This document shows positions 48,578 to 64,000 of a stretch of 64,000 nucleotides of DNA, piece by piece. Positions within the stretch are counted from its first letter, which is position 1. Each line of letters starts with the position of its first letter. Below the pieces are notes generated by a model. The model was not told the origin of the DNA, searched no databases, and worked only from the letters and a program-made list of their open reading frames with translations. The stretch spans positions 1,984,001 to 2,048,000 of the forward strand of contig NZ_CP047024.1 of the NCBI RefSeq assembly GCF_009796745.1, read 5' to 3'. The DNA is from Paraglaciecola sp. L1A13. Lineage in GTDB: Bacteria; Pseudomonadota; Gammaproteobacteria; Enterobacterales; Alteromonadaceae. Position numbers and translations under genes: made by a program.

Positions 48578-50077
48578 ATGTCAATCCCTTTTCAAATTGT
48601 GATCCTCGGCGGCGGCACAGCAGGTTGGATGGCCGCAAATTTGTTCGCCCATAAATGGGCGGATAAAGTGGCAAGCAAAGCATTGCAGATCAGTTTGATT
48701 GAGTCACCCGATATAGGAATAGTTGGGGTGGGTGAGGGCTCAACACCCACCTTGAAACGTTTTTTCGAAATGCTCAACATTCCCGATAAAGATTGGATGG
48801 CGAAGTGTAATGCGACTTACAAAATGAACATCGCCTTTACTGGGTTTAGTCCAGCATCAGGTATCGAGCGATATAGCCACCCATTTATATCGCAAATTGA
48901 TACGTTTACCCAACGTGCGTTTATGGTTAATAGTCGCACCCGGCGCATGGGATTAGATACCCATACGGCCTCAGAAGACTTCTTACTAAATGGTACATTA
49001 GCCAAGCAGGTGAAAGGGCCGCAGACCCCTGATAATTTCCCATTTAGCATTGAATATGGTTACCATTTTGACTCCCATCTGTTGGGGGCATATTTACAGG
49101 ATCATGCTATTTCCCTAGGAGTGATGCATGTTCAAGCTAATGTAGAGGCGGTGACGCGTCACCCAAATGGAGATATTGCGAGTCTGCAATGTAAGGACGG
49201 ACGAGACATCAATGGCCACTTTTTTGTAGATTGCAGCGGGTTTGCCAGTGTACTTATGCATAAAACACTTGGTGTTAAATTCATCAGTTACAAAGACAAC
49301 CTTTTTAACGACGCAGCGGTCGTTGTGCCGACTCCTATGGGCGAACACATTCCCGTCGAGACGATTTCCACGGCCCTTTCTGCAGGGTGGTGCTGGAAAA
49401 TCCCCCTGACTAACCGCTTTGGTAATGGTTATGTATATAGTTCGGATTTTATCGACGCAAACCAGGCTGAGAGTGAACTCAAACAGCATTTACAACTGGA
49501 GGATAACCAAGAGTGCCGGCATTTATCCATGCGCGTGGGCGCACTTGAGAAGCAATGGCAAAACAATTGTTTGGCGGTGGGTTTGTCTGCAGGATTTATC
49601 GAACCGCTTGAGGCAACAGCCTTGCACATAACCCAGATCGCCATAGAACAATTCATTATGGCATTTGAAGAGGGTGAATTTAGTAATCGCTTGCAAGATG
49701 AATTTAACCACAAGATGCACAAACGTTTGGAACGAACACGCGATTACATTGTTGCACACTATAAATTAAATACCCGAGACGACAGTGATTATTGGCGAGC
49801 AAATCGGTCTAACGTTCATTTGTCGGAGTCTCTAAAGCAAATACTCGATGTGTGGTACAAATGTGGCGATCTTGACAACGAAATAAAACGTCAAGATCTT
49901 ACTACGCACTTTAACGCAGTCTCTTGGAATTGCCTATTAGCGGGTTACGGCGCGTTTCCGCCCTTGGCGGCTAATCAACCCGGAAAAGGCGATTTATACC
50001 AAGAGCAAAATATTGCGCAATTTGTCCACGGCTGTGCTCTCAATTTCCAAAGCCACAAGAGCAATTTATTCCGCTAA
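48578..50077 (+). CDS. Flavin-dependent tryptophan halogenase family protein (2)
   Basis: 499 residues, a diverged homologue of the preceding gene. It has GGGTAGW at 11-17, Lys82 in NATYKMNIAF at the catalytic position, the WxWxIP motif as AGWCWKIPLTNR, and AGFIEPLEATALHITQ, where the conserved Ser after Glu is Ala. That last change may affect halide or substrate handling. It starts one base after the first halogenase, so the two are co-translated. Its substrate is unknown. Confidence 0.88.
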   Translation: MSIPFQIVILGGGTAGWMAANLFAHKWADKVASKALQISLIESPDIGIVGVGEGSTPTLKRFFEMLNIPDKDWMAKCNATYKMNIAFTGFSPASGIERYSHPFISQIDTFTQRAFMVNSRTRRMGLDTHTASEDFLLNGTLAKQVKGPQTPDNFPFSIEYGYHFDSHLLGAYLQDHAISLGVMHVQANVEAVTRHPNGDIASLQCKDGRDINGHFFVDCSGFASVLMHKTLGVKFISYKDNLFNDAAVVVPTPMGEHIPVETISTALSAGWCWKIPLTNRFGNGYVYSSDFIDANQAESELKQHLQLEDNQECRHLSMRVGALEKQWQNNCLAVGLSAGFIEPLEATALHITQIAIEQFIMAFEEGEFSNRLQDEFNHKMHKRLERTRDYIVAHYKLNTRDDSDYWRANRSNVHLSESLKQILDVWYKCGDLDNEIKRQDLTTHFNAVSWNCLLAGYGAFPPLAANQPGKGDLYQEQNIAQFVHGCALNFQSHKSNLFR

Positions 50078-53474: not shown

Positions 53475-55601
53475 TTAAAACTTAGCTCTTACGCCAAGGC
53501 TAACAGAGCGACCCGAAAGCGGTACCTGATCCTTAATATAGGAAGAATGTACGCGACCCTCTTTATTTGTTAAGTTATTACCCTTCAAATAGATAGTCAT
53601 ATCCATCTTATCGAGATCTAAATAATAATTAGCCGAGGCTGATAGCATGGTATAACCATCTGTGTCGGTTTCATTTGAAGCAATCTTGTCTTGTTTATTA
53701 TTGCGCACGACTTCAATTTCACTGTGCCAATTACCTTGTTCATAATGTATGGAACTGCCCACTCTCATCGGTGGAATACGCGGAACATTTCCACCTTCAT
53801 CCAATTTAGCGCGGGTATAATCGCTGAAAATTTCCCAGCGCAGTTCGTCGGTTATATGTAAGTCTAATTGGGCTTCAAATCCATAAAGAGTGGCATCTTG
53901 CTGTTGGAAAAGCACCACGGGTAAACCGTCTGTTTCTTCTTCAGGTTCACCATTTAGCGCGACATCTGCATCAAAACTCGCTTGTGTTATTAACTGCCCG
54001 TCAACAGACACTAAGCCCGTACGTTGTTCAAATATATAATTGCCGACCTGATTGTGGAACAAGCTCACGGACGCATTCCAAATATCGGCATGGTAGCGAT
54101 AGGTAAAGTCTAGATTGTTAGATTCCTCTTTATCCATATCTTGTGAGGCTTGGCTAAGGGTATACACGCCATCTTGTTCATCAATCGTAAAGCCGCCACC
54201 AATTTCATAGACCCCTGAACCTATATGTGGACCATAGGAAAATATCTCTGAAGCTGAGGGGGCTCGTTGGGAATAGGCGTAGTTAAAGGCCAATGAGTGA
54301 TGATCATCAAGATTCCATACAACACCAGCGGAACCTGATACTGCGGTATAATCTTTATTATCAAAAGAGAGATTGCTTAGCTGTTCTAAATCAGCATAGA
54401 AATCATTGTTTACCTTGTGTTTAAGGTTTTCTGCTCTCGCGCCTAACTGCCACAACAATGCCCCCATTTCATGTTCTTCCATTAGAAATACGGCGGTCGT
54501 GTTGGTTTTAGTCGGTGGGGTAAAGGCTTCTTCACCTAAGGCTGAAAAATCTAAATAGTTATAGTGAAGTCCCATTACGCCTTTCCAACCTGCGACGACT
54601 TCATGTTCAGCCCATAATCGTGATTCTATGGTTTCATTTTTGAATGTTGTACCCGCTTCTGCACCTTCAAATTCAGTATGTTGGTAATCGGTATAAGCAC
54701 TTTGTAAATGAACGGCCTTGAAAAAGCCACTTAGTTTGTTCCAATCGACCACACCCTGGTACCGATTTTGTTTTAATTTGATATACACATCTTCTTCTAC
54801 AGGTAAGCCATATTCAGAGTCCATACGACCGTAAGAAAGTGCAACGCGTGTATCATCGGTGATCCAGCCTCCGCCAAAATTATACCCGTGAGCACTGATA
54901 GATGAGTTTGCAAGCTCGCCACTACCGCCTGATTCATTGATATCAGCCGGTACTGGAATTTTATAGTCACCGGTTTTACGATTATAGCCATCAACATGGA
55001 AGACAAAATCGCCACTTCCCACATTTAAATCGGTTGAAAGTGTTTTTGCGTCAGCGACGTTATCGTACTGGGCAAAAACTTCTCCAGTGAGTCCTTCTTG
55101 TCGTTGGGCGGGTAAACGATTATCAACCACGTTAACAACACCACCTATGGCGCCGCTGCCGTACAATAAGGTTGCTGGTCCTCTAAGCACTTCAATTTGA
55201 GTTGCTGTTGAGGTCTCTGTTGCTACTTGATGATCAGGGCCGACCCGAGAGGCATCTGAGGCATCTAATCCATTTTGTACCACTTTGATACGCGGGCCAT
55301 CCAAGCCTCTGATAATTGGGCTACTTGCTACAGGTCCGAAAAAAGAACTGTGCACACCGGGCATATTTTTTAAGGTTTCACCTAAGGTGGCTGCCTGATT
55401 TTGATCCAGTTCTTCGCCACTAAGAATGCTAACGGGGGTACTTGATTGAAGTACTGTCCTGTTTAGGGGGGATGCGGTGATCTGCAGGGTTTCAATATCC
55501 TGCTCATCTTTTTGGATATTTTTATCGTGCTCTTGTGCGTGTGCGTTAGCTGTAAAAGCCGCTAATACTGCCAATAAAAGGGTTGAGTGCTTAGTTTTCA
55601 T
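53475..55601 (-). CDS. znuD: ZnuD-like TonB-dependent zinc receptor
   Basis: 708 residues. ATG 55601 is preceded by AAGAGA and gives a clean signal peptide (about 1-22). The plug domain has PVSILSGEELDQNQAATLGETL, then MPGVHSSFFG, SPIIRGLDGPRIKVVQNG, VGPDHQVATET and EVLRGPATLLYGSGAIGGVVNVV, a run very like ZnuD. The C-terminal barrel ends in Phe (SLGVRAKF). ZnuD takes up zinc across the outer membrane. The Zur-like site upstream of the small co-directional gene supports zinc as the ligand; copper or heme are less likely alternatives. Confidence 0.85.
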   Translation of the reverse strand: MKTKHSTLLLAVLAAFTANAHAQEHDKNIQKDEQDIETLQITASPLNRTVLQSSTPVSILSGEELDQNQAATLGETLKNMPGVHSSFFGPVASSPIIRGLDGPRIKVVQNGLDASDASRVGPDHQVATETSTATQIEVLRGPATLLYGSGAIGGVVNVVDNRLPAQRQEGLTGEVFAQYDNVADAKTLSTDLNVGSGDFVFHVDGYNRKTGDYKIPVPADINESGGSGELANSSISAHGYNFGGGWITDDTRVALSYGRMDSEYGLPVEEDVYIKLKQNRYQGVVDWNKLSGFFKAVHLQSAYTDYQHTEFEGAEAGTTFKNETIESRLWAEHEVVAGWKGVMGLHYNYLDFSALGEEAFTPPTKTNTTAVFLMEEHEMGALLWQLGARAENLKHKVNNDFYADLEQLSNLSFDNKDYTAVSGSAGVVWNLDDHHSLAFNYAYSQRAPSASEIFSYGPHIGSGVYEIGGGFTIDEQDGVYTLSQASQDMDKEESNNLDFTYRYHADIWNASVSLFHNQVGNYIFEQRTGLVSVDGQLITQASFDADVALNGEPEEETDGLPVVLFQQQDATLYGFEAQLDLHITDELRWEIFSDYTRAKLDEGGNVPRIPPMRVGSSIHYEQGNWHSEIEVVRNNKQDKIASNETDTDGYTMLSASANYYLDLDKMDMTIYLKGNNLTNKEGRVHSSYIKDQVPLSGRSVSLGVRAKF

Positions 55602-55680
55602 CGTGTTGTCTCTTGCATGCATATTAAATAACAGCCGGTATATAGTTAAATAACCGGAAAAATAATGGGTTTTATACGAA

Positions 55681-55950
55681 CTAAAATACTGAGGGGGGAT
55701 CACGATTTCCTGCTGTGCGCACAAACAGCGGAATATAGCGTTTAATCGTTATTTCAATCGTAAACCCTGCAAGAGGCAAAGCTAATACCGGTGGGAAACC
55801 AACAGGTATGGAATGATCAAGGTTATGAACCGTTAAGCATAGAGCACAATGATTTTCGCTCTGTGATTTATGGGAATTATCATGCCAATCGTAAAGAACA
55901 CTGGCCGCAACACAAAGCAGCAGCACAAGCACGAGTGTGTATTTCAACAT
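55681..55950 (-). CDS. Small membrane protein with His/Cys cluster upstream of znuD (DUF2946-like)
   Basis: 89 residues from ATG 55950 (103 from ATG 55992). One N-terminal hydrophobic helix (LVLVLLLCVAAS) is followed by a His-rich, CxxC-bearing segment (HDNSHKSQSENHCALCLTVH) and a second weak hydrophobic stretch. It ends in RDPPS, as in DUF2946-like proteins. Such small proteins often precede metal receptors and may bind or shuttle metal. It lies directly under the Zur-like site and 79 bases before znuD, so the two probably form one transcript. I favour 55950 because 55992 lies almost at the expected transcription start. Function is inference. Confidence 0.65.
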   Translation of the reverse strand: MLKYTLVLVLLLCVAASVLYDWHDNSHKSQSENHCALCLTVHNLDHSIPVGFPPVLALPLAGFTIEITIKRYIPLFVRTAGNRDPPSVF

Positions 55951-55994
55951 CGTGGACTGTTTTCTTAGTGAGTGGAATGAATTTTTTTGCATGA

Positions 55995-56845: not shown

Positions 56846-58603
56846 TTATTTAGGTAGCTTGAATGTCCAAACTGAACCACCTTGATTGAAATGCTTAATG
56901 CGCTTGGCTACATCGCCACCCCATAACGGGACGGCGCCGCCCCAGCCTGACAATACAGATATATACTGCTCTCCGCCCATTTCCCATGTAACAGGTGAGC
57001 CAACGATGCCAGAACCAGTATTAAATTTATATTTAATTTCGCCTGTCTTTGCATCGAATGCGAGTAAATATCCCTCTGGATTACCCATGAATACTAGGTT
57101 TCCGGCAGTGGCCAAAACTCCACCCCATAACGGAGCATAATTTTCATAACGCCACACTTCTTTACCTGTCTCAGGGTTAATCGCTTTTAATACGCCAATG
57201 TATTCTTCGTTAATCGGCTTAATCGTAAAACCTGCACCTAAGTAGGCCGCGCCTTTTTTGTAAGCGGTAGGTTCATTCCAAATGTCCATTTGCCATTCAT
57301 TCGAAGGTACATAGAACAGTTTCGTATCTTGACTATATGCCATAGGCATCCAATTTTTGGCACCTAAGAAAGCAGGCGCTGAAACAACTGAACTACCTTG
57401 GTTGCCGGTTTCTGACTTGCTTGGATCACCAGGTCGATTACTGTCATCGTAAATAGGGCGGCCATTCTTATCTAAGCCTGTGGCCCATGTGATTTTATCG
57501 GCGAATGGGAAGCCCTTAATGAATTTTCCGTTTTCTCTATTAAGAACGTAAAAGAAACCATTTCTATCAGCTGAGCCAGCCGCTTTAATAGTTTTACCTT
57601 TCTCTTTATAGTCAAATGAAACGAGTTCGTTAACACCGTCAAAATCCCATCCGTCATGGGGAGTAGATTGAAAGCTCCAAACTATTTTTCCGGTATCTGG
57701 GTCGATACCTAAACGCGAGGATGAAAAGAGGTTATCCCCTGGACGCAAATGAGAGTTCCATGGTGATGGGTTACCGGTACCGAAAAATAATAAATCAACA
57801 TCAGGATCATACGTTCCGCCTAACCAAGGCGCAGCGCCGCCGGTTTTCCATAAGTCACCAGGCCAGGTTTTACCTGCTTCGCCGCCAGAAATGCCGTTTT
57901 CAACTTTTTTTCCGTCCTTCCAGATGTAGCCCATATGACCTTCAACGGTGGGGCGCTCCCATACTATTTGACCATTCTTAGCGTCATAGGCACGAACGTT
58001 TCCGACAACGCCGAACTCACCACCAGCCACGCCGGTAATGACTTTACCTTTAACGATAATTGGCGCGGCTGTAATGGAATAGCCTGCTTTATAATCTTCT
58101 ACGGTTTTTTTCCAAACTACTTTGCCAGTGTCTTTGTTTAGGGCGACCAGTTTTGCGTCTAGGGTGGCGAAAATAACGAGGTCGTCGTACAAGGCGGCAC
58201 CACGGTTTACCACATCGCAGCATGGCATGATGCCATCAGGTAGTCTTGCGTCATATTGCCAAATTTCATCCCCCGTCATTGCGTCAATGGCGTATACACG
58301 GGAATAGGAGCCCGTGACATACATTACGCCGTCTTTAATCATGGGTTGTGATTCTTGGCCGCGCTGTTTTTCGCCACCTAGGGAGAACGCCCAAACAGGA
58401 CGGATATCTTTTACTGTATCGGTACTGATTTTCCCCAGAGGGCTGTAGCGTTGCCCTTTAAGACCCATTCCATAGGAAACTACGTCGTCTGTGGTGGCTT
58501 GGTCGTTCAAAATATCTTTATCGGTGACCTTTGCATTGACTCCAGTGGACAGTGCAATAAGCACTGATAATGACAATATTTTCGTTATAGCTTTTCTGGA
58601 CAT
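56846..58603 (-). CDS. PQQ-dependent alcohol dehydrogenase, lanthanide-type (PedH/ExaF-like)
   Basis: 585 residues, signal peptide about 1-24, then an eight-bladed beta-propeller with repeated W-docking motifs. Vicinal Cys128-Cys129 (IMPCCDVV) form the redox-related disulfide. Metal ligands are Glu196 (GGEFG), Asn278 (GTGNPSPWN) and the catalytic Asp320. Two residues on is Asp322 (WDFDGVNE), the extra Asp that marks lanthanide-dependent XoxF and ExaF/PedH enzymes; calcium enzymes have Ala or Ser there. It oxidises alcohols in the periplasm and passes electrons to a cytochrome c. GGAA lies six bases before the ATG. It is followed by a terminator. Length and Cys context fit ethanol-type enzymes; the substrate is inferred. 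Confidence 0.93.
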
Positions 58604-58796: not shown

Positions 58797-59681
58797 TCAT
58801 GGAGCGTAATAGTCTGGGGTTTCATAAGTAACCTGATACTGGTCAAATATGTTGGCCATGGTTCCATTACTGATCATTTGCCCTACAACATCGCCGACAG
58901 CATAGGCTAATTGTCGATGGTCACTTTTAACGGCCATACCTATATCCCACTTCTGTTTGCCGATCATGGGGAAGGCATTTTCTGCAAGGAGATAGCGTTC
59001 TTTATCTAATTTTCCGCGGTAATAACTGATTTGACTGCGCATACCCATAACCGCATCCACCTTGTTTGCTTGCATGGCCGATACGGCTAGTGGAATAGTG
59101 GTGAACTGTTTACTTTTTTCGCGCATTCGACCGGAAAACGCAGACATAAGATAAAATTGAGGAATAGAATCATTCTCAACACCTATATCGTGATATTGGA
59201 AAATAGCCATGGTAGGAACAGATTTGATAGCCGTTGAATCAAACATAATTTGCCACGATTCGACGTGATAAGGGGCGAACATATGCACATTAGCGTGCAC
59301 TAATTCACCAATGTCGTCGCGTAATAAAGCATAAGCTTTATCGTAGGGGACTCTTAGCATAAGGTCAGCTACGGTGCGGGTTAAGTAATGACCTTTCCAA
59401 ATATTATTGCGTAAGTCATCTTCCACATTTTCGTCAGCAGTCATCCATTTCAGCTTAAGGTTAACGCCTAACGCGTCAGCAATATGATGGGCGACTGCTA
59501 CATCAATACCTTTGCTTTTACCATCTTGTTGAAATGAAAAGGGCGGAAAATTCCGATATACCGCCACCACAATTTCATTCTTCTCAATGATATCGTCAAA
59601 GCTCAGGGCACTGGTTCCATGACTGATAACCAGCAAGTAACTAGCCCATAAGATATGAAGTACGTGCTTATTGATCTTCAC
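58797..59681 (-). CDS. MoxJ-like quinoprotein dehydrogenase-associated periplasmic binding protein
   Basis: 294 residues with a signal peptide (about 1-25) and a type II solute-binding fold: IVVAVYRNFPPFSFQQDGKSKG, DVAVAHHIADALGVNLKLKW, and the late DAVMGMRSQISYYRG. This is the family of MoxJ/XoxJ-type proteins found with PQQ dehydrogenases. They are thought to help mature the enzyme or bind its partner; XoxJ may help activate the dehydrogenase. Its start overlaps the cytochrome gene by 14 bases, and the PQQ enzyme follows 193 bases downstream on the same strand. Confidence 0.85.
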   Translation of the reverse strand: MKINKHVLHILWASYLLVISHGTSALSFDDIIEKNEIVVAVYRNFPPFSFQQDGKSKGIDVAVAHHIADALGVNLKLKWMTADENVEDDLRNNIWKGHYLTRTVADLMLRVPYDKAYALLRDDIGELVHANVHMFAPYHVESWQIMFDSTAIKSVPTMAIFQYHDIGVENDSIPQFYLMSAFSGRMREKSKQFTTIPLAVSAMQANKVDAVMGMRSQISYYRGKLDKERYLLAENAFPMIGKQKWDIGMAVKSDHRQLAYAVGDVVGQMISNGTMANIFDQYQVTYETPDYYAP

Positions 59682-60111
59682 TGACTGACTCTAACCAAGT
59701 ACGGATAGACCATAACGCTTCTTGATTTAGATATTCTGACATTTTAGGCATATAGACTGCGCCGTTGCGAACCGCGCCATTTTTAACCCGATACACATAC
59801 CACTCATCTCCATCGAAATCCGCAGGAAGCGTGCGTAAATCGGGTGCGATACCGCCAGAAACACCACCTAAGCCATGGCACCGTGCACAGTTTTGGTTAT
59901 ACGCAGACGAGCCAACTCGAAGTATCTCTTCGCGGTCGTGGCCTTCTATTTCACGGTATGGGTTGGTATCGGCCCATTCTTCGCCAAGCACGGGTAAAGT
60001 TGAAGTGTCCATCGCTTGTGGGGTTACTGAACCATGTGCAGACAAACCAAAAGAACAGGTTGTTATGGCTGCTATAAAAATACTGCGGCTTAATATATGT
60101 TTAATCATCAC
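59668..60111 (-). CDS. Periplasmic c-type cytochrome (PedF/c550-like) for PQQ dehydrogenase
   Basis: 147 residues. Signal peptide about 1-26. One heme site, CARCH, is at 75-79, and the likely axial Met is in YMPKMSEYL. EIEGHDREEILRVGSSAYNQN precedes the heme, and IAPDLRTLPADFDGDEWYV follows it. It is the expected electron acceptor of the PQQ alcohol dehydrogenase, passing electrons to the terminal oxidase. GAGG lies upstream of a double ATG. It is the first gene of the minus-strand unit. Confidence 0.9.
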   Translation of the reverse strand: MMIKHILSRSIFIAAITTCSFGLSAHGSVTPQAMDTSTLPVLGEEWADTNPYREIEGHDREEILRVGSSAYNQNCARCHGLGGVSGGIAPDLRTLPADFDGDEWYVYRVKNGAVRNGAVYMPKMSEYLNQEALWSIRTWLESVSEDQ

Positions 60112-60212: not shown

Positions 60213-60233
60213 TCATCCTTTAGGATGATTTTT
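60213..60233 (+). terminator. Terminator-like hairpin in the divergent region before the ABC genes
   Basis: Stem TCATCC/GGATGA with a TTTA loop, followed by five T on the plus strand. No plus-strand gene ends here, so it is either a leader attenuator for the ABC operon, the end of a short RNA, or a chance hairpin. Confidence 0.4.
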
Positions 60234-60370
60234 AGCGGTTATTTTCCGTAAAATTGCAATTATCTTAACAATATCAAATGATTAGGTTCTATCTGCTGTA
60301 ATTTCAAATTTTCTTATACTTCTATATGCTAATCCCTAAGCTGGTTTTAGACGTTGGTAATAGGATGATG

Positions 60371-61573
60371 ATGAAGAGATCCATCAAACATAAGTGGGGT
60401 AGGTTTGTTATTGCTTTGCTTTTTTATAGTGCTTTTATTAGTGGTTCCGTTATGCAGGTTTCGGCGCAATCATTGCCGTTAAAATATGATATTAACTATT
60501 TTAAATTAACGCAAAAAGCACGAGCGACTTTTACCAATATCAATCAATTGCCAGAAGACAGTGGTTATCTCGGCGCTAAATTAGCCGTTGATGATTCTAA
60601 TTCCACCGGTAAATTCATCAATCAAACATTTTCATTGCGATACGCCCAATTCGAACATGCAAATGGACTATTGGCTGGTTTAAATGAGCGTTATTTAGAC
60701 GGCCAAACGATTTTCTTATTACAGGCACCTGCCGATTTACTTATTGCAGCTAATACTTGGGCCAAAGACAAAGCGGTGTTGCTGTTTAATATAAGTGAAC
60801 CCGCCGATGGGTTACGTTATAAACAGTGTTTATCGTCGATGTTACATACCATTCCGAGTTATGCGATGAAATCTGATGCGTTGGCTCAGTGGCTGGTAGC
60901 ACGTCGTTTACAAAAAGTATTAATGATCAGAGGTAAATCAGATGAAGACAAGCAAGTCGCTAACGCTTTTAAACGTTCAGTAAAACGATTTGGGTTGAAG
61001 GTTGTCGATGAAAAAATATGGGACTTTTCCACTGATTTACGCCGGACAACCCAGCAAGAAATACCACTGTTCACGCAAACCTCTTCGGAATATGACGTTG
61101 TATACGTGGCGGATCCAGCTAAAGATTTTGCCGAGTTTTTACCCTTTAATACTTATCTACCTCGACCTGTAATCGGTTCGGCTGGGCTTGAGGCACTCGC
61201 GTGGCATCGTGTCATCGAGCAATGGGGCGCAGCTCAGCTACAAAGCCGTTTTGTGCAATTGGCGTCGCGTAATATGAATGAGTTGGATTTCAGTGGCTAT
61301 TTAGCGCTGCGAACAGTTGCGCAAGCCGCTCAGCACCTTAAATCGAATCAACCGCAAATACTGACTGATTATATTCATTCTAGTCAATTTGAATTAGCTG
61401 CTTATAAAGGTCGTAAGTTGAGTTATCGCCAATGGAATGGGCAATTAAGAATGCCAATGGCGTTGGTACAGCCCAATGCGTTGGTTTCACAGTCCCCCCA
61501 AGAAGGCATGTTACACCCCGAAAATGAATTAGACACGTTAGGGTACGATGCCCCTGAAATGAAGTGTCAATAA
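60371..61573 (+). CDS. Periplasmic binding protein of the PQQ-dehydrogenase ABC system
   Basis: 400 residues from ATG 60371, which has AGG at suitable spacing and gives a clean signal peptide ending VSAQS; longer in-frame ATGs at 60326, 60365 and 60368 exist. It has the type I binding-protein pattern: NISEPADGLRYKQC, LHTIPSYAMKSDALAQWLVAR, KVLMIRGKSDEDK, YDVVYVADPAKDFAEFLPF, then a C-terminal lobe with RTVAQAAQH. It matches the binding protein found with PQQ alcohol dehydrogenase ABC systems. It is divergent from the cytochrome gene and heads a four-gene plus-strand unit. Confidence 0.85.
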   Translation: MKRSIKHKWGRFVIALLFYSAFISGSVMQVSAQSLPLKYDINYFKLTQKARATFTNINQLPEDSGYLGAKLAVDDSNSTGKFINQTFSLRYAQFEHANGLLAGLNERYLDGQTIFLLQAPADLLIAANTWAKDKAVLLFNISEPADGLRYKQCLSSMLHTIPSYAMKSDALAQWLVARRLQKVLMIRGKSDEDKQVANAFKRSVKRFGLKVVDEKIWDFSTDLRRTTQQEIPLFTQTSSEYDVVYVADPAKDFAEFLPFNTYLPRPVIGSAGLEALAWHRVIEQWGAAQLQSRFVQLASRNMNELDFSGYLALRTVAQAAQHLKSNQPQILTDYIHSSQFELAAYKGRKLSYRQWNGQLRMPMALVQPNALVSQSPQEGMLHPENELDTLGYDAPEMKCQ

Positions 61574-61602: not shown

Positions 61603-62583
61603 ATGAATAAGCGAATAATAAGCGGGTTAGCGATACTCAGTGTCTGGGCATTTTGCGGGGCAGCGAAAGCGACAGAACTTGCCTATGTAACCAATGAAAA
61701 AGATAACACTGTTTCTGTCATTGATGTGGCTGAACACAAAGTATTGCGTCAATTTGATGTAGGCCAGCGACCCAGAGGTATTGTATTAAGCCACAATGGC
61801 TCAACCGCATACATTTGTGCCAGTGAGTCAGACAGCATTCAAGTAGTGGACTTAGCAACCGAGAAAGTAATCGGTGAACTGCCCTCTGGAGAGGACCCTG
61901 AAACCATTGCCTTGCACCCTAACGGGAAAACCATCTATACGTCTAATGAAGACGATGCCTTACTAACAATAATCGATATCGCGTCGCGTTCCGTGATTGC
62001 GCAAATAGATGTGGGCGTAGAGCCCGAAGGATTGGCAATCAGTCCGGATGGTAAATTAGCGGTTGTGACGTCAGAAACCACAAATATGGTGCACTGGATT
62101 GACACACAAACCTATCAAAATATCGATAATTCATTAGTGGGAGCAAGGCCTCGTTCAGCTAAATTTTCGCAAGACGGTAAGCTATTGTGGGTGAGTTCTG
62201 AGATTGGAGGCACCCTTAGCGTATTCGATGTTAAAAGTCGAAAGGTCATACATGATTTTCGTTTTAAAATTGCCGGTGTGCACCGGGATAGGGTGCAGCC
62301 AGTTGGCGTGGAATTGAGTGAAGATGGCCGATATGCATTTGTAGCGTTAGGGCCAGCGAATCATGTTGCGGTAATCGATATTGCCAATATGACCATAGAA
62401 AAATACATATTGGTTGGTCGCAGAGTATGGCAGTTGGCGTTTAATCATGATCAGAGTATTTTACTCACAACAAACGGCGTGAGCGGTGATGTGTCTATGA
62501 TTGATATGGCAAAAATGAAGGTTACCCGCTCGATTAAGGTAGGGCGTTACCCTTGGGGAGTGGTCGTGCGTCAATCCCAGTGA
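61603..62583 (+). CDS. YVTN beta-propeller protein linked to PQQ catabolism
   Basis: 326 residues with a signal peptide (about 1-23) and about seven repeats of the form AYVTNEKDNTVSVIDVAEHK and VGQRPRGIVLS. This is the YVTN/NHL-like fold of PQQ-dependent catabolism-associated proteins. No catalytic or cofactor residues are recognised, and its role is unknown. AAGG is upstream of the ATG. It lies 29 bases after the binding-protein gene. Confidence 0.87.
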   Translation: MNKRIISGLAILSVWAFCGAAKATELAYVTNEKDNTVSVIDVAEHKVLRQFDVGQRPRGIVLSHNGSTAYICASESDSIQVVDLATEKVIGELPSGEDPETIALHPNGKTIYTSNEDDALLTIIDIASRSVIAQIDVGVEPEGLAISPDGKLAVVTSETTNMVHWIDTQTYQNIDNSLVGARPRSAKFSQDGKLLWVSSEIGGTLSVFDVKSRKVIHDFRFKIAGVHRDRVQPVGVELSEDGRYAFVALGPANHVAVIDIANMTIEKYILVGRRVWQLAFNHDQSILLTTNGVSGDVSMIDMAKMKVTRSIKVGRYPWGVVVRQSQ

Positions 62584-62676: not shown

Positions 62677-63423
62677 ATGAATAACCCCCGTTCAGCAAGT
62701 ATTACAGTTAAAGATGTCTCCTTTCGTTATGGCCCGAAGGTGGCGCTTGATTCAATTAATCTGCAGGTAACGTCAGGAATTAATATAATACTTGGGCCAA
62801 ACGGTGCGGGTAAAAGTACGCTATTTTCCTTACTTACCGGTCTGCTTTGCCCATCGTGTGGCGCAATTGACGTCAATGGGCTTAGTTTTGACAAACAGCA
62901 CTCGAGCATAATGCAAAGTATGGGAGTGGTGTTCCAGCAAAGCACCCTTGATCTGGACTTAACCGTACAGCAAAATTTGCTTTATTTTGCCTCGTTGCAC
63001 GGTATTGCACCTGACAAAGCATTAAAAAATATTGAATCTATGCTTGTCGAACTAGCGTTAAACGATAGGTTACAAGATAAGGTTAGAACGCTTAATGGAG
63101 GCCATCGCAGACGGGTTGAAATCGTTAGAGCGCTTATCCATCAACCGCAAGTACTCTTGCTTGATGAACCCACTGTAGGGTTGGATATTGAGAGTCGGGC
63201 GCTGATCCTCAAACATGTTAGAGCACTGGGTGACCGCGATAGTCTATGCGTATTGTGGGCTACGCACCTTATCGATGAAATAAGGCCAAGCGATTCATTA
63301 GTTGTTATCCATTCAGGCAAAATAAAAGCGCAGGGCGTTACGGAGCCACTATGCCAAGAAAATCAGGTCGATACTGTGAGCCAACTGTATCGGAAGTTGA
63401 CGGGGAGCACGGAAGCAATATGA
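62677..63423 (+). CDS. ABC transporter ATP-binding protein of the PQQ-dehydrogenase system
   Basis: 248 residues. Walker A GPNGAGKST is at 40-48, Walker B VLLLDEP at 159-165, followed by the TVGLD D-loop and an H-loop His in WATHLIDE. The signature is LNGGHRRRVEI (139-149) instead of LSGGQ; this variant is typical of this particular family and need not mean loss of function. It pairs with the ABC-2 permease that follows with a four-base overlap (ATGA). Confidence 0.9.
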   Translation: MNNPRSASITVKDVSFRYGPKVALDSINLQVTSGINIILGPNGAGKSTLFSLLTGLLCPSCGAIDVNGLSFDKQHSSIMQSMGVVFQQSTLDLDLTVQQNLLYFASLHGIAPDKALKNIESMLVELALNDRLQDKVRTLNGGHRRRVEIVRALIHQPQVLLLDEPTVGLDIESRALILKHVRALGDRDSLCVLWATHLIDEIRPSDSLVVIHSGKIKAQGVTEPLCQENQVDTVSQLYRKLTGSTEAI

Positions 63424-64000
63424 ATTCATCTGCTTACCTATATTGTTTTAACGGCATCGTGAAACGTGAAATTTTACGCTTTTTACAACAGCGAACGCGT
63501 TTAATTAGTGTGTTAGTGCGGCCATTGTTATGGCTGGTGGTCTTTGCTGCTGGCTTCCGCTCAGCATTAGGGGTATCTATAATGGAGCCCTACGGTACGT
63601 ATATAACATATCAAGAATACATCACCCCAGGATTAGGGGGGATGATCATCCTTTTCAACTGCATGCAAAGCTCGTTGTCTATGGTATATGACCGTGAAAT
63701 GGGCAGCATGAAAGTTTTATTGATGAGTCCTATCCCTCGAACATTTTTATTGTTTAGCAAGCTGGTAGCTGGGGCTATTTTGTCGACCTTGCAGGTACTT
63801 ATTTTCTTATTTGTTACCCGAATTGTCGGAGTTGAAATTGAACCATGGGGTTTTTTCACCGCAATACCTGCGATTTTCTTAATATCGTTCTTCCTCAGTG
63901 CATTGGGGTTGATGTTAGCTAATTTAATTACCCAATTAGAGAATTTTGCTGGGGTGATGAATTTTGTGATTTTCCCAATGTTTTTCCTGTCTAGCGCTTT
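63420..64000 (+). CDS. ABC-2 type permease of the PQQ-dehydrogenase system, cut by window end
   Basis: An open frame from ATG 63420 (overlapping the ATPase stop as ATGA) to the window end, with no stop in 193 codons. The N-terminus MNSSAYLYCFNGIVKREIL leads to ABC-2 features: a first membrane helix with VRPLLWLVVFAAGF, then YITPGLGGMIILFNCMQSS, REMGSMKVLLMSPIPRTFLL, and further helices near 118-138 and 145-170. ABC-2 permeases usually export. The family is the PedC type of PQQ alcohol dehydrogenase systems. The C-terminal part lies outside the window. Confidence 0.88.
   Translation, partial: MNSSAYLYCFNGIVKREILRFLQQRTRLISVLVRPLLWLVVFAAGFRSALGVSIMEPYGTYITYQEYITPGLGGMIILFNCMQSSLSMVYDREMGSMKVLLMSPIPRTFLLFSKLVAGAILSTLQVLIFLFVTRIVGVEIEPWGFFTAIPAIFLISFFLSALGLMLANLITQLENFAGVMNFVIFPMFFLSSA

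Follow-up and report, generated by a model that had tools for sequence, protein, structure and literature searches.

One stretch of the Paraglaciecola sp. L1A13 genome combines a gene for a predicted lanthanide-type PQQ alcohol dehydrogenase, an ABC system resembling PedA1A2BC, and a candidate outer-membrane receptor, P0002; a search of the genome revealed no calcium counterpart from the methanol/ethanol family. The window analyzed here is the whole 64,000-nucleotide stretch G000:C1:1984001-2048000 of this single-contig 4.97-Mb genome. Judged from its sequence, the enzyme is very probably a PedH/ExaF-type lanthanide-dependent PQQ alcohol dehydrogenase, with a lanthanide as its predicted metal. 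P0002, encoded just past the window, is a plausible, though clearly less secure, candidate for the lanthanide receptor of the outer-membrane step, its presumed cargo being the metal. The genes and sites concerned are as follows.

56846..58603 (-), predicted PedH/ExaF-type PQQ alcohol dehydrogenase (P0001), 585 aa, with E196, N278, D320, D322, and the pair C128-C129; signal peptide recognized by eye
58797..59681 (-), periplasmic solute-binding protein (SBP_bac_3), PedG/XoxJ-like by position and presumably equivalent
59668..60111 (-), cytochrome c-550 PedF (TIGR04494, 192 bits; cut-off 122), the likely electron acceptor
60213..60228, perfect inverted repeat TCATCC-N4-GGATGA in the intergenic region that separates pedF from the divergently oriented ABC genes
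60326..61573 (+), substrate-binding protein of a PQQ-ADH-associated ABC system (TIGR03863, 482 bits; cut-off 414)
61603..62583 (+), PQQ-associated beta-propeller protein (TIGR03866, 512 bits; cut-off 287)
62677..63423 (+), ABC ATPase (TIGR03864, 338 bits; cut-off 302)
63351..64000 (+), ABC permease PedC (TIGR03861, 427 bits; cut-off 241), start codon uncertain, continuing past the window end (L004:7351-8196)
L004:8460-10769 (G000:C1:2048460-2050769, stop included), TonB-dependent receptor P0002, just past the window and beyond PedC

The Dehydrogenase and Its Metal Site

Frame 1 of the plus strand contains many stops over 56846-58603, and the open reading frame is real on the minus strand. Its 585-aa product scored 785 bits against TIGR03075, the methanol/ethanol PQQ dehydrogenase family (cut-off 480). 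An earlier note on this DNA had listed C128, C129, E196, N278, D320, and D322 as site residues, and all six were read at these positions in the translation. The same note took D322 for the second, lanthanide-coordinating Asp and named an alignment as the way to check it; run against PedH, XoxF, ExaA, and 1kv9, this comparison left D322 at the metal-site position. Specifically, the HMMER alignments placed D322 on the Asp of PedH (6zcw, WDFDG) and of XoxF (6dam, WDYDG), in a column that holds Ser in ExaA (1flg, WDFSG) and Thr in the type II enzyme 1kv9. A calcium-type enzyme, for which Ser, Ala, or Thr would be expected at position 322, was rejected in view of the Asp found there.

The site was then compared among 156 relatives from fetched loci, or 145 once identical ones were removed; these loci were picked by similarity to the dehydrogenase or its neighbors and describe that part of the family only. 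The site read C C E N D D in all 93 relatives scoring 1000 bits or more and in all nine at 700–1000 bits, giving DxD in 102/102 at or above 700 bits. It read C C E N D S in 26/26 at 500–700 bits, which are ExaA-like with 52–57% identity. The retention of DxD in every high-scoring relative, with Ser in every ExaA-like one, indicates that D322 is not there by chance. Among the 17 relatives below 500 bits, the last site position was D in ten, T in five, and A in two, one of the two Ala rows being a dehydrogenase from the mox cluster of Methylobacterium nodulans.

Comparison with solved chains gave 1000 bits for PedH, 651 for ExaA, and 365 for XoxF, placing the dehydrogenase nearer PedH. The best solved matches by both sequence and fold were the two PedH entries, 6zcv and 6zcw, and identity to PedH reached 73% over 560 columns in the fold alignment of the predicted model. 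An identity as XoxF was rejected at 37% in the fold alignment. The AlphaFold model has low confidence at the metal loops (195–199, 278–287, and 318–322), and its site geometry is not usable. PedH of Pseudomonas putida KT2440 (6zcw/6zcv) shares both the metal-site residues and the PedF partner family with the Paraglaciecola enzyme; the likeness to ExaF of Methylobacterium extorquens is drawn from its description in the literature.

Paralogues and Cofactor Genes in the Genome

No calcium-type paralogue had been seen in the window, and this observation of the earlier note extends to the 4.97-Mb genome: at E<=1e-5, no second enzyme of the methanol/ethanol family was found, the other matches being two pieces of one frame. 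That 819-codon frame, near G000:C1:2508906-2509979 (L006), appears by eye to encode a membrane glucose dehydrogenase, and its WDYD is the DxD discussed for m-GDH. In P. putida, PedE and PedH form a switch; in Paraglaciecola, with no ExaA/PedE-type paralogue detected, the cell would presumably be unable to change enzymes in this manner, for want of a calcium twin of the methanol/ethanol family.

The guess of an Alteromonadaceae-type bacterium also fits, as the same-genus genomes G008 and G002 match named Paraglaciecola chathamensis and P. mesophila, of the family Alteromonadaceae. Five of the 22 genus genomes (G000-G021) have a PedH-type enzyme, and five others have only a relative of 42–43% identity with Thr at the site; the PedH-type (Asp) and type II-like (Thr) enzymes occurred together in 0/22 of them (E<=1e-40). 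With respect to the cofactor, pqqC was found in the L1A13 genome above its cut-off, with pqqB, pqqD, and pqqE recognized beside it by eye, as was a PqqA-like reading frame of 23 residues.

Gene Neighborhood of the Dehydrogenase

The four ABC families TIGR03863, TIGR03866, TIGR03864, and TIGR03861 lie in one row, all above their curated cut-offs, and from the family names this row likely corresponds to PedA1A2BC. P. putida requires PedA1A2BC for lanthanide-dependent growth at nanomolar metal, and the system resembles the ABC genes of Methylobacterium (PMC6839425); in the P. putida naming, PedG is the binding protein and PedI the aldehyde dehydrogenase (PMC12997753). As in PedA1A2BC/LutABEF, all four families are present and clustered in Paraglaciecola. 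Unlike those systems, its ABC genes are divergent from pedF and adjacent to the enzyme gene, and its genome revealed no clear lanmodulin, the best candidate being a 44-residue EF-hand match.

The same gene arrangement as in L1A13 was observed in P. chathamensis (L020) and P. mesophila (L021). More widely, 80 named loci (L020-L099) around close enzyme relatives were viewed over at most 10 kb per side; some contigs end early, so the counts are lower bounds. On this basis, a binding-protein homologue is present in at least 74, a PedF homologue in at least 73, and the whole ABC cluster in at least 43. At least 24 loci have an ExaA-type paralogue, and just one of these 24 also has the whole ABC cluster. 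Two layouts can be seen among the 80, again as lower bounds: the ABC cluster without an ExaA-type paralogue (42) and an ExaA-type paralogue without the whole cluster (23), with both in one locus.

The inverted repeat TCATCC-N4-GGATGA was found in four of 35 pedF-ABC intergenic stretches, namely the L1A13 one, those of P. chathamensis (L020) and P. mesophila (L021), and that of G050 (L152). It could possibly be a regulator site, a suggestion we put forward weakly; no palindrome with 6-base arms was common to the upstream regions of the ABC, enzyme, and receptor genes.

Several further neighbors were observed on either side. Past P0002, at L004:11106-15132, lie a membrane protein and a second ABC system, which consists of a binding protein without a family match (by eye), an SsuC/NtrB-like permease, and an NtrCD/TauB-like ATPase; in two Colwellia loci (L025 and L026), parts of this system are found again on the corresponding side. 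Further along are a porin (by eye), a LuxR-type regulator, an NahK/ErcS-family kinase, a FIST protein (by eye), an aldehyde dehydrogenase (by eye), and a NosR-like protein at 614 bits, below the cut-off of 1000. A DUF3422-like protein was also named by eye. Within the window, a ZnuD-like TonB-dependent receptor (53475-55724, minus strand; 381 bits, below the cut-off of 950) stands beside a small protein without a family match that carries Cys-x-x-Cys and His residues (55681-55992, minus strand), and the two are perhaps a zinc or copper pair. An apparent flavin-dependent tryptophan halogenase, judged by eye, is encoded at 48578-50077 on the plus strand near sugar-related genes.

Occurrence of the Receptor P0002

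P0002 has no near paralogue in its own genome, where the next best of 28 candidates scored reached 30 bits. Among 60 relatives, P0002-like receptors were present in seven, exactly the seven with a PedH-type enzyme, and were absent from the five with the 42–43% enzyme relative. An order sample of 295 genomes contained the enzyme in eight and PedC in the same eight; the receptor was found in six of these eight enzyme carriers versus 0/287 of the other order genomes. In a phylum sample of 398 genomes, PedC occurred in 56 and the receptor in 37, both together in 26, and the receptor alone in 11. The link between receptor and PedC across the phylum sample is strong but not exclusive. Fisher's test gave p values of 2.6e-9 (relatives), 3.2e-11 (order), and 5.4e-17 (phylum) on genomes that are not independent; for example, nine of the 56 PedC genomes, all nine with the receptor, belong to one genus (g183). 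The absences are approximate, as the receptor candidates scored per genome were the best three in the order sample, the best two in the phylum sample, and up to 17 among the relatives.

The receptor genomes did not prove to be those lacking an ExaA-type paralogue, an idea that gained no support, with the receptor in 3/7 genomes with such a paralogue and 9/26 without. This comparison covered the 33 genomes with a PedH-type enzyme (at least 800 bits) among 61 searched. A PedH-type enzyme without an ExaA-type paralogue is common, being found in 26 of these 33, and is not special to Paraglaciecola sp. L1A13.

The position of the receptor gene varies. It adjoins pedC in G000 and G050 and pedF in G184. 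In G246, G313, and G153, its distance to the enzyme gene is 12–42 kb. In the 80 named loci, it fell inside the fetched stretch in six; elsewhere, it may be further off or missing. These data bear on the alternative in which P0002 is just a conventional receptor, for iron siderophores or otherwise, riding along with the island. Such an origin would fit the P0002 relatives found in surroundings without lanthanide genes and the source annotations, which name several relatives as iron-complex receptors. It agrees poorly with the exact co-occurrence among the 60 relatives and the presence in six of eight carriers in the order, and hitch-hiking on one fixed segment becomes less likely because the receptor position varies among genomes. 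We consider this alternative unlikely, yet it is the one that best survives beside the lanthanide receptor.

Relatives, Phylogeny, and Fold of P0002

Beyond L1A13, the phylum sample contains 55 genomes with PedC; stretches around PedC were fetched for 51 of these (all but G620, G624, G642, and G656) and for five more from the order, giving 60 stretches. The loci around PedC held 35 receptor frames, of which 27, including P0002, exceeded 200 bits with P0002 and eight had no detectable similarity to it; the search for these frames took P0002 and ZnuD as its starting points, which biases it to P0002-like receptors and may have missed other kinds. One receptor relative, G497:C6:117959-119968, has one in-frame TGA. 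Against receptors near lut/ped clusters in lineages outside the marine clade, P0002 scored 251–402 bits, with some of these frames cut at the stretch end.

One such locus, L202, reads lutA, beta-propeller, ATPase, permease, receptor, and a lanmodulin-like gene, which we take to be so from its repeated DPDxDGT motif. The same order has been described in M. extorquens, with lutH ahead of lanmodulin (PMC7391723). On an M. nodulans plasmid, a receptor 32% identical to P0002 lies one gene from a lanmodulin-like gene; a lanmodulin on a plasmid of this species is already published (PMC12482762). Plasmid surroundings were viewed for seven of 31 hits, and four contained quinoprotein genes (M. nodulans, Sphingobium, Novosphingobium, and Burkholderia multivorans). 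No lanthanide or quinoprotein genes were found within 12 kb at the other three (Methylocalor, Caballeronia, and Ideonella). P0002 is 31–32% identical to the lanmodulin-side receptors versus 35–36% to the Caballeronia and Ideonella receptors.

A tree of 50 receptors, rooted at the midpoint arbitrarily and for drawing only, and drawn without the M. extorquens LutH sequence, resolved a P0002 clade of 13 rows (100/100), a lanmodulin-side clade of 25 rows (100/100), and a third, mixed clade of 12 rows (100/99) that holds three receptors near PedC (L172, L173, and L177). Sorting the receptors by a GDE versus GNEN motif gave no clean clades. P0002 resembles the LutH receptors of Methylobacterium in its 31–32% identity, over about 740 columns, to receptors that adjoin lanmodulin-like genes or follow a lut cluster, and in the shared association with quinoprotein and lanthanide ABC genes. 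It differs from them in its separate, well-supported clade and its acidic stretches, NGDDSD..C and SCADEDDPC, and would best be described as a distant homologue.

The nearest solved structure to P0002 is the PQQ importer PqqU (YncD), both by fold, at 17% identity, and by profile, where it scored 100 bits versus 54 for the next distinct protein. An import of PQQ by a PqqU-like P0002, instead of lanthanide, has this likeness in its favor, together with the position of the receptor after the pqq genes in G246 (L161, by eye), the B. multivorans relative near pqqABCDE, and the finding that 23% of PqqU producers also hold PQQ biosynthesis genes (PMC12124388). The Paraglaciecola genome, in contrast, has its own pqq genes, and P0002 reached 96 bits against a cut-off of 1200 for the PqqU model. 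Moreover, the PqqU signature residue Y99, where F or W is also accepted (PMC12124388), aligns with Leu99 of P0002, and this position is non-aromatic in all 50 aligned family members. The region of P0002 that would correspond to R304 and R365 of PqqU did not align, and these residues are not placeable. With Leu at signature position 99, PqqU was set aside as the first choice for P0002, and we regard PQQ import as improbable.

A more far-reaching idea would make P0002 part of a marine lanthanide-receptor lineage related to LutH and PqqU, serving bacteria whose only methanol/ethanol-type quinoprotein is the lanthanide-bound enzyme, and perhaps even importing a PQQ-lanthanide complex, cofactor and metal together. 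For some PqqU homologues, a passage of metal along with PQQ has been suggested (PMC12124388). We mention this as speculation of very low probability.

Metal Use and a Proposed Route

The DxD motif alone does not prove strict lanthanide dependence, because m-GDH, which is predicted to be promiscuous, carries DxD too (PMC11996626). The prediction of lanthanide use made in the earlier note is nevertheless supported, as three lines of evidence agree: the site residues, the 73% identity to a lanthanide enzyme of solved structure, and the adjoining PedA1A2BC-type ABC cluster. A promiscuous or calcium-run enzyme in the cell, with the Asp merely tolerated, could be favored by the far greater abundance of Ca in seawater (about 1e-2 M versus about 1e-11 M for lanthanides; PMC11996626), by the DxD of m-GDH, and by the lack of a second methanol/ethanol-family enzyme in the genome, but it is rendered highly improbable by purified PedH, whose activity is confined to lanthanides and which carries Asp at the position of a Ser in PedE (PMC5487730), and by the adjoining cluster, with PedC in 8/8 enzyme carriers of the order sample.

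For a lanthanide-dependent enzyme served by P0002, the following route can be proposed. The LutH-like P0002 would admit the lanthanide across the outer membrane, probably in chelated form, after which part of this presumed cargo would enter the cytoplasm by way of the PedA1A2BC-type system. PQQ would be synthesized endogenously through the pqq genes. A light lanthanide, bound in the periplasmic enzyme by E196, N278, and D320 plus the extra D322, would activate PQQ to accept two electrons from what is likely a short-chain alcohol or aldehyde, and the electrons would then pass to the cytochrome c550 PedF. The aldehyde product may reach an aldehyde dehydrogenase encoded ~21 kb off (L005:3769-5289, assigned by eye).

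Significance

The enzyme itself is unsurprising, given that earlier work describes lanthanide-type dehydrogenases as widely distributed in the ocean: 61% of 6,328 PQQ dehydrogenases there have the lanthanide motif, and such enzymes occur in 20% of 1,888 MAGs (PMC11996626). We found no paper in the library searched that links Paraglaciecola with lanthanide, which is no proof of absence in print; the main text of PMC11996626, supplements aside, contains no occurrence of Alteromonas, Paraglaciecola, or Colwellia. On the receptor side, 41 of over 14,000 receptors cluster with the four confirmed Methylobacteriaceae ones (PMC11996626), and LutH-like receptors are widespread in methanotrophs, also on plasmids (PMC12482762). 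P. putida is described as having no close LutH homologue (PMC6839425, PMC12997753), and its outer-membrane lanthanide route is given as unresolved (PMC12997753). In contrast to the P. putida PedH setting, the Paraglaciecola cluster includes a candidate outer-membrane receptor, with marine relatives.

What the analysis adds is the uptake gene neighborhood together with a receptor candidate that co-occurs tightly with the enzyme. Because enzyme, ABC system, and receptor lie in one stretch, in an arrangement common to two named Paraglaciecola strains, the outer-membrane lanthanide step in PedH bacteria becomes directly testable genetically through P0002.
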